Shown here: positions 714 to 1,917 of the stretch, in pieces
Position numbering within the stretch: position 1 is the first letter of the stretch
Layout: every line of letters begins with the position of its first letter
Source of the DNA: Nitrospinota bacterium
GTDB taxonomy: Bacteria; Nitrospinota_A; UBA7883; JACRGQ01
Direction: 5' to 3'
DNA length: 64,000 nucleotides
Assembly (NCBI GenBank): GCA_029881495.1
Contig: JAOUMJ010000001.1
Location: 124,001-188,000 of the forward strand
Position numbers and translations under genes: made by a program
The notes under the pieces: generated by a model
The model's database searches: none
Told to the model about the DNA's origin: nothing
What the model saw: only the letters and a program-made list of their open reading frames with translations

Positions 714-1127
714 TTACTTTTCTATCGGCGCGCCCTGAACATGGTTTACGCCAGTCATGCCGGATTCAACGTTTATGACACTCGTAAAACCGTTTTCCGT
801 AAGGAACCGCGCGGCGGACCTGCTCCTCATTCCTGAGCGGCAGACTACATAGATCGTTTTTTCGCGGTAGCTCTCAAGCTCACTTACCCTTGAGGCAAGA
901 TCCTGTACCGGGATCAGCTTGGCTCCTTTTATATGACCAAGAGGGCCGTGAAACTCCTGAGGAGTCCTTACGTCAAGAACGAGGCTGCCGTTGCCGCTCT
1001 TTATCGCCTGAACCGCTTCCTGGGGGGAAACCGATTTGAAAGTATCGTTGGATGCAAACAGATCGTATACAGCGCTCATAGCAAACATAATTGTAATTAC
1101 TCCTATCACTAACTTTTTATTCTTCAT
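714..1127 (-). CDS. Exported rhodanese-domain protein
   Basis: Single-domain rhodanese of 137 aa, a sulfurtransferase or persulfide carrier expected in the periplasm. Residues 1-26 are a lysine-rich start followed by a hydrophobic stretch, consistent with a signal peptide or membrane anchor. The rhodanese fold follows: LDVRTPQEF near residue 51 and the active-site loop VVCRSGMRS with Cys96. The ATG at 1127 has GGAG 8 nt upstream. It stands alone, is followed by a clear terminator, and is divergent from the sigma-54 region at 1241-1859. The sulfur donor and acceptor are unknown. Confidence 0.85.
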   Translation of the reverse strand: MKNKKLVIGVITIMFAMSAVYDLFASNDTFKSVSPQEAVQAIKSGNGSLVLDVRTPQEFHGPLGHIKGAKLIPVQDLASRVSELESYREKTIYVVCRSGMRSRSAARFLTENGFTSVINVESGMTGVNHVQGAPIEK

Positions 1128-1336: not shown

Positions 1337-1351
1337 TGGCAGGTGTGTTGC
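1337..1351 (+). promoter_or_regulatory. Sigma-54 (RpoN) promoter 1
   Basis: TGGCAGGTGTGTTGC matches the -24/-12 consensus TGGCACG-N4-TTGC at all fixed positions except one (G for C at position 6), with exact GG-to-GC spacing. The predicted start is near 1363, only two nucleotides before the GGAGG of the ORF at 1379. It shares the flank CTTTTGGCA with the promoter at 1628. Confidence 0.75.
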
Positions 1352-1378
1352 GCCACAGAAAATTGGAGGGAAATAAAA

Positions 1379-1444
1379 ATGGCTAAAAAACTATTATGTA
1401 AAAGGCGAATATACAGATACTTACAGTCTGGGGGTATGGTTTGA
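1379..1444 (+). CDS. 21-aa basic small ORF behind a sigma-54 promoter
   Basis: ATG with GGAGGG 8 nt upstream opens a 21-codon frame, residues MAKKLLCKRRIYRYLQSGGMV, ending in TGA. The peptide is strongly basic, has one cysteine and no membrane segment. The ORF lies between a sigma-54 promoter (1337) and a terminator-like hairpin (1496), giving a transcript of about 165 nt. I recognise no family. The transcript may instead act as a small RNA, with the ORF incidental. The ribosome-binding site, the promoter and the matching layout at 1628-1859 are the reasons for calling it. Confidence 0.5.
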   Translation: MAKKLLCKRRIYRYLQSGGMV

Positions 1445-1495
1445 GAAATATTAAAATCTAAAAATGATACAGGGTGGAGAGTGTTAAGAATTACC

Positions 1496-1526
1496 GCACA
1501 TTTTTTTTAAAAACGTGCACTTTTTT
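1496..1526 (+). terminator. Hairpin plus T-run ending the 21-aa ORF transcript
   Basis: GCAC-A-TTTTT pairs with AAAAA-C-GTGC (one A/C mismatch, 3-nt loop) and is followed by AC and six T. The AT-rich stem makes it weaker than a textbook terminator. Confidence 0.45.
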
Positions 1527-1627
1527 AGAAATAAAAACCGTATTTGTAGTCTTAAAAAAGCAGGAAAAACAAAAGCATAATTGTAACTGTTTGAATAAAT
1601 AGGGCAAAGTGCCTATGCCCCCCCTTT

Positions 1628-1643
1628 TGGCACCTACCTTGCA
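1628..1643 (+). promoter_or_regulatory. Sigma-54 (RpoN) promoter 2
   Basis: TGGCACCTACCTTGCA fits TGGCACG-N4-TTGCW with exact GG-to-GC spacing and one departure (C for G at position 7). The predicted start near 1654 is about 3 nt before the AAGGAG of the ORF at 1671. The promoter-to-ATG distance (29 nt from -12 GC to ATG) is nearly the same as for promoter 1 (28 nt). Confidence 0.8.
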
Positions 1644-1670
1644 CACTAGAATGAGCAAGGAGACATAGTA

Positions 1671-1859
1671 ATGAGAGCAAAAACAATAGAACCAAGGGAA
1701 TCGAAAAGAGCGGCTGTAAGGGTCTGCAATCATTGCGGCGGTACATTGAGATTTTACCGCGGATCACTCTCCTGCCTAATGTGCGGCAGGGACGTGGATC
1801 ACTCATGCAAGGATTGTGATGTATCCGCGCAACACCACGTTTTAGCCAAAACAGGCTGA
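1671..1859 (+). CDS. 62-aa small zinc-ribbon protein
   Basis: Small protein with three CxxC pairs: Cys19/Cys22, Cys35/Cys38 and Cys46/Cys49, plus His21, His44, His55 and His56. The first two pairs have the spacing of a zinc ribbon; the third may complete a second site or bind another metal. It has no signal peptide or membrane segment. The ATG has AAGGAG 8 nt upstream and follows a sigma-54 promoter by an almost leaderless UTR. No partner gene is linked except the similarly arranged 21-aa ORF upstream. Function is unknown; a stress- or nitrogen-responsive regulator is only a guess from the promoter. Confidence 0.75.
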   Translation: MRAKTIEPRESKRAAVRVCNHCGGTLRFYRGSLSCLMCGRDVDHSCKDCDVSAQHHVLAKTG

Positions 1860-1893: not shown

Positions 1894-1917
1894 GGGCACT
1901 TGGATAGCCAGGTGCCC
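1894..1917 (+). other. Strong hairpin after the zinc-ribbon gene
   Basis: GGGCACTTGG and CCAGGTGCCC form a 10-bp stem (one G-T pair) with a 4-nt loop. No T-run follows, so it may be a 3'-end stabilising or Rho-assisted structure rather than an intrinsic terminator. Confidence 0.5.

Follow-up and report, generated by a model that had tools for sequence, protein, structure and literature searches.

Sigma-54 RNA polymerase probably transcribes a stand-alone gene, the product of which is a zinc-ribbon protein of 62 residues, from a promoter at positions 1628–1642 of the window, the 64-kb stretch of a 2.82-Mb, 72-contig Nitrospinota assembly that was analysed here. The protein is likely to be a small zinc-folded adaptor or regulator. 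The gene and its promoter are referred to below as unit 2; a similar element with a short open reading frame upstream of it, unit 1, appears to be a separate entity. The literature searched holds almost nothing on sigma-54 in the phylum Nitrospinota. At this locus, a conserved family of small, uncharacterised proteins comes with a clear regulatory handle, and there is a concrete prediction: an rpoN-dependent transcription start at about 1654, together with candidate co-regulated units that include small RNAs.

Two tandem sigma-54-like elements

Two TGGCA-N6-TTGC elements can be read directly in the window, on the same strand and 291 bp apart. The features of the locus are as follows.

714–1127, minus strand: divergent rhodanese gene with a probable N-terminal signal (Pfam Rhodanese, 6e-16)
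1337–1351, plus strand: unit 1 sigma-54-like -24/-12 element TGGCAGGTGTGTTGC, exact core in a weaker form with G at both outer consensus positions, not conserved
1365–1370, plus strand: unit 1 Shine-Dalgarno sequence GGAGGG, read directly
1379–1444, plus strand: unit 1 open reading frame of 21 codons, MAKKLLCKRRIYRYLQSGGMV, a candidate peptide gene
1496–1526, plus strand: weak hairpin (GCAC/GTGC plus A-T pairs; fold -5.7 kcal/mol), then six T (1521–1526, read directly), a possible unit 1 terminator
1628–1642, plus strand: unit 2 predicted sigma-54 -24/-12 promoter TGGCACCTACCTTGC (TGGCACCTACCTTGCA over 1628–1643), canonical form
1657–1662, plus strand: unit 2 Shine-Dalgarno sequence AAGGAG, read directly
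1671–1859, plus strand: unit 2 open reading frame, 62-residue zinc-ribbon protein, CxHCGG-x11-CxxCGR-x3-HxCxxC
1894–1917, plus strand: strong hairpin GGGCACTTGG/CCAGGTGCCC 3' of unit 2, without a T tract (fold -21.5 kcal/mol for 1890–1925)

CTTTT lies directly 5' of both elements, and their GG-to-GC spacing is that of sigma-54 sites. Transcription starts, placed 12 nt past the C of the -12 element, are predicted at 1363 (unit 1) and 1654 (unit 2), giving leaders of 16–17 nt with the Shine-Dalgarno sequence 2–3 nt inside them. The ATG codons at 1379 and 1671 follow the -12 C by 28 and 29 nt, respectively, and the frame of unit 2 is open over 62 codons with three CxxC pairs. The initial annotation had given the two sites, their exact spacing and common flank, the Shine-Dalgarno placement, these distances and the sizes of the reading frames correctly. 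Its term 'near-consensus' suits the second site, which has the full form, and fits the first less well, where a G follows both TGGCA and TTGC. No known RNA family came near threshold at the locus. Several ACAGG/CCTGT motifs, including ACAGGAATATCCTGT, lie 5' of unit 1 at 1204–1258 and are candidates for a regulator site.

The window contains no further exact TGGCA-N6-TTGC match, and the 2.82-Mb genome has 30, these two included. Since this count barely exceeds those of control patterns (21 for the reversed pattern and 29 for the wrong spacing, N7), a bare match to the exact core is weak evidence. Of the 30, 15 have the fuller form TGGCAY-N5-TTGCW and 12 of these are intergenic, compared with 3 of the 15 that have other forms. 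The unit 2 site belongs to the fuller group and agrees with the consensus, with GG and GC dinucleotides at -24 and -12 and the fixed spacing. The unit 1 site (TGGCAG...TTGCG) has the core and departs from the fuller form at both outer positions.

Conservation of the unit 2 promoter

Orthologues were taken as the best match in each genome that keeps the Y-x-G loop, giving 18 besides that of the window. Four best matches without this loop (L050, L053, L054, and L056, from four genomes of the class) were set aside as paralogues, and none of these four has a sigma-54 site. In 13 of the 18 orthologues, the 80 nt before the ATG contain a sigma-54 core with no more than one mismatch, seven of them exact, against a background in 80-nt windows of the same contigs of 0.6% (one mismatch) and 0.1% (exact). 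The nominal binomial value for 13 of 18, about 1e-25, is overstated, as the orthologues are related and not independent. The element does, though, persist in six families (f1 to f6) whose gene neighbourhoods differ, so that its support does not depend on the kinship of the orthologues. The zinc-ribbon gene stands with rhodanese and methyltransferase genes in the window's family and with def/fmt in others. Both the rhodanese and the methyltransferase gene adjoin it in at least 4 of 10 family relatives, which in part contradicts the earlier description of the units as lying between unrelated genes.

In five of the 18 orthologues, no site is present when one mismatch is allowed. One of these is in G001, the genome with the most shared gene order; there, a chemotaxis gene now lies directly upstream of the zinc-ribbon gene, and the element is gone. 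The G002 element (CGGCACACATCCTGC) differs at two positions. Eight family relatives (L034–L041) carry an enhancer-like dyad, AAAATTGRCG...CGYCAAAA, about 107–140 bp 5' of the -24 element. The dyad is probably an activator site in these relatives, its position being as expected of an enhancer. It was not found in the window, where a hand-made profile of its left half reached top scores at chance level only, matched at other places in the same stretch.

The genome has one rpoN, a gene with a sigma-54 DNA-binding domain, and about 16 strong matches to activator ATPases. Predicted sigma-54 sites precede an FlgEFG-type flagellar gene (L015), a FliO-domain gene (L019), an N-methyl pilin gene (L026), and a gene for a peptidoglycan-binding protein (L030). 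Furthermore, a sigma-54-like sequence, TTGGCATATTGAGTGC, with a GTGC -12 element, lies roughly 100 nt upstream of groES (Cpn10, L124, G000:C2:58067–58082); if it is a real site, the chaperonin would be under sigma-54. Of the small stress or nitrogen regulon proposed in the initial annotation, the nitrogen reading is not supported: none of the other predicted targets, which are small RNAs, groES, and genes for flagella and pilins, points to nitrogen.

Taken with phylogenetic footprinting, the rpoN and activator genes and the like sites at flagellar and pilin genes support sigma-54 control of the zinc-ribbon gene. Transcription by RpoN, suggested earlier for both units, is supported as a prediction for unit 2; the unit 1 site is not conserved.

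A small zinc-ribbon family of one Nitrospinota class

A protein search found relatives of the zinc-ribbon protein in 22 of 22 other genomes of the class, with E values down to 3e-22. Neither the single further genome of the phylum nor the plasmids searched had one, and matches outside the class were few and weak. Named records with the protein are mostly Nitrospinota or Nitrospinales metagenome-assembled genomes, with three under a 'Nitrospirae' or unnamed label. By sequence, the family is largely confined to this Nitrospinota class. Fourteen positions are invariant in 19 sequences (C19, H21, C22, G23, G24, Y29, G31, C35, C38, G39, R40, H44, C46, and C49), a set that takes in all six CxxC cysteines along with H21 and H44. 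A second, divergent type often occurs in the same genome, in some cases with a lysine-rich tail. The C-termini of eight orthologues (L043–L049 and L052) all read [KR][TS]A, and the window protein ends in KTG.

The window protein has no curated match in Pfam or NCBIfam: DZR, C1, and others fell below cut-off, and NCBIfam gave noise only. A search of PDB sequences returned E values of 0.34 or worse. An AlphaFold2 model built from an alignment of 11 sequences has a mean pLDDT of 64, rising to about 82 over residues 21–40, and places two short strands within that segment and a short helix at 47–54. In a fold search of the PDB with this model, the top matches included zinc ribbons of transcription factors; these are discounted as evidence because their E values, 0.6 or worse, are not significant.

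Several known systems bear comparison. The double zinc ribbon (DZR, PF12773) is the Pfam family matched by most members (10 of 19), whereas the window protein scores 19.3 bits, below the curated cut-off of 27.3, and so is not assigned to it. HVO_0758 and HVO_2753 of Haloferax volcanii are small C(P)XCG zinc-finger micro-proteins whose deletion mutants alter swarming and biofilm (PMC10716476). Like them, the present protein has fewer than 70 residues, two CxxCG knuckles, and a single domain; unlike these archaeal proteins, with which no sequence relation is shown, its family adds a third group, HxCxxC, and lies under predicted sigma-54 control. The promoter architecture resembles that of sigma-54 regulons for flagella, pili, and the cell exterior (PMC3162934), in keeping with the sites 5' of flagellar and pilin genes in this genome, but no exterior role is known for the target in this case, a small zinc-ribbon protein. 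DksA/TraR-type small zinc proteins that act on RNA polymerase (PMC9239242) are comparable in that the present protein is small, is predicted to bind zinc, and could act on RNA polymerase; it has no curated family match, and the likeness is one of size and class only. From the sequence we infer that the protein binds zinc and, by analogy, that it has an adaptor role.

A model for unit 2

In the proposed mechanism, an AAA+ activator would respond to a signal, upon which sigma-54 RNA polymerase would transcribe unit 2 from 1628–1642. Such transcription, predicted from the promoter sequence, would give a leader about 17 nt long that opens almost directly with the ribosome site. The product would be small and probably cytosolic, most likely with one zinc held by two CxxC knuckles (C19/C22 and C35/C38), and H44, C46, and C49 could offer a second site or one shared with a partner. 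It may act as a small adaptor or regulator on RNA polymerase, the ribosome, or nucleic acid, and not as an enzyme. Unit 1 would stand apart from it: the site may have arisen by chance, or it may be a young sigma-54 start, giving a short RNA that might or might not encode the 21-residue peptide. The readings of unit 1 considered below do not compete with this explanation of unit 2.

Unit 1 and its possible origins

The relatives searched for unit 1 were 22 genomes of the class, all from other genera. Its DNA gave nothing there beyond short partial matches and 18- to 21-mers attributable to chance, and the 21-residue peptide had no match (best E 0.56). No second sigma-54 site lies 5' of the zinc-ribbon orthologues in relatives. 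Two candidate counterparts were rejected. The 21-base matches in G008 and G009 lie inside what appears by eye to be the coding sequence of a repair endonuclease, without a promoter, and were taken as chance; in G001, the similarity to unit 1 of TGGCATAGAAGGTGC, between the rhodanese gene and the next gene, is not beyond chance. Of the pair, unit 2 recurs in relatives, through the protein in every class genome searched and the element in most orthologues, and unit 1 does not. These comparisons suggest that unit 2 is old and that unit 1 is lineage-specific or fortuitous; it may have arisen at the level of the genus.

It is quite possible, though short of probable, that the 1337 site is a chance match and that unit 2 alone is a real transcription unit. 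In the genome, the exact core turns up about as often as control patterns do, and 12 of the 15 sites of the weaker form fall inside genes. Against this, the 540 bp of intergenic DNA that contain the site adjoin a conserved sigma-54 gene and would be expected to include about 0.003 exact matches on each strand (from 30 per 5.6 Mb of strand), and the site is followed by a well-placed Shine-Dalgarno sequence and ATG.

A somewhat more tentative reading takes unit 1 as a sigma-54-driven non-coding RNA or leader in which the reading frame is incidental. That the frame has no homologue agrees with this, as do candidates for sigma-54-driven small RNAs in the genome and family, one of them 2.2 kb upstream (C1:123141–123156). 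However, the folding of the RNA does not stand out from that of shuffled sequence (z = 0.02), and a good Shine-Dalgarno sequence stands at the proper distance from the ATG. As a possible target of C-rich small RNAs, unit 1 was rejected, the duplex energies being only 1–2 sd better than those of shuffles.

We consider it unlikely that the two units form one sigma-54 module, with tandem promoters under one activator and a basic peptide from unit 1 that works with the zinc-ribbon protein. The shared strand, the 291-bp separation, the CTTTT flanks, the nearly equal promoter-to-ATG distances, the presence of only two exact sites in the window, and the weak hairpin and T run between the units are all consistent with a module, but unit 1 has the weaker form of promoter, its DNA and peptide are absent from the 22 relatives, and only one site stands 5' of the zinc-ribbon gene in relatives. 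Nor is there a clear signal of duplication: a local alignment of the units scored 26 against 20 +/- 2.9 for shuffles, 15 of 300 shuffles were as good, and the score is driven by the promoter itself. A distance of 28 nt is also found at an unrelated unit of the same genome (L001). With no counterpart of unit 1 and no clear duplication, the initial picture of 'matched twin units' is not sustained.

Sigma-54-linked small-RNA candidates outside the window

Sigma-54-dependent small RNAs are known, for example GlmY (PMC3162934). A small RNA with the core CCCTCTAACCTCCCCTTAGA (G000:C16, from 66301, L179; L169–L178 in ten family relatives) is present in exactly one copy per genome in 11 family genomes and absent from 49 others. 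The core resembles an anti-Shine-Dalgarno sequence and is invariant save for one base in G008. A sigma-54 element starts 57–72 nt upstream of it; nine of the 11 genomes have the exact element, whereas that of G009 has one mismatch and that of G008 two. Downstream there is a terminator-like hairpin in which, across seven aligned copies, several pairs have changed on both sides in a compensatory manner. The copy of this genome had no match in Rfam at threshold. This small RNA may be of more interest than the units in the window.

A broader proposal would make the zinc-ribbon protein a class-wide, sigma-54-induced regulator of transcription or translation, in one regulon with the sigma-54-driven anti-Shine-Dalgarno small RNAs. 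The [KR][TS]A C-terminus, shared by most members that lie outside the family of the window, may be a hint of a recognised tail. We regard this as improbable; were it true, the sigma-54 response of Nitrospinota would act largely after transcription starts.

Another small-RNA candidate lies on the minus strand about 850 bp to the left of the window (G000:C1:123141–123156; L102:11156). It consists of TGGCATGATTCATGC followed by C-rich segments and a strong hairpin with a T run. At the same place in G001, which shares the gene order, there are two tandem small-RNA candidates (L111:16321 and 16550).
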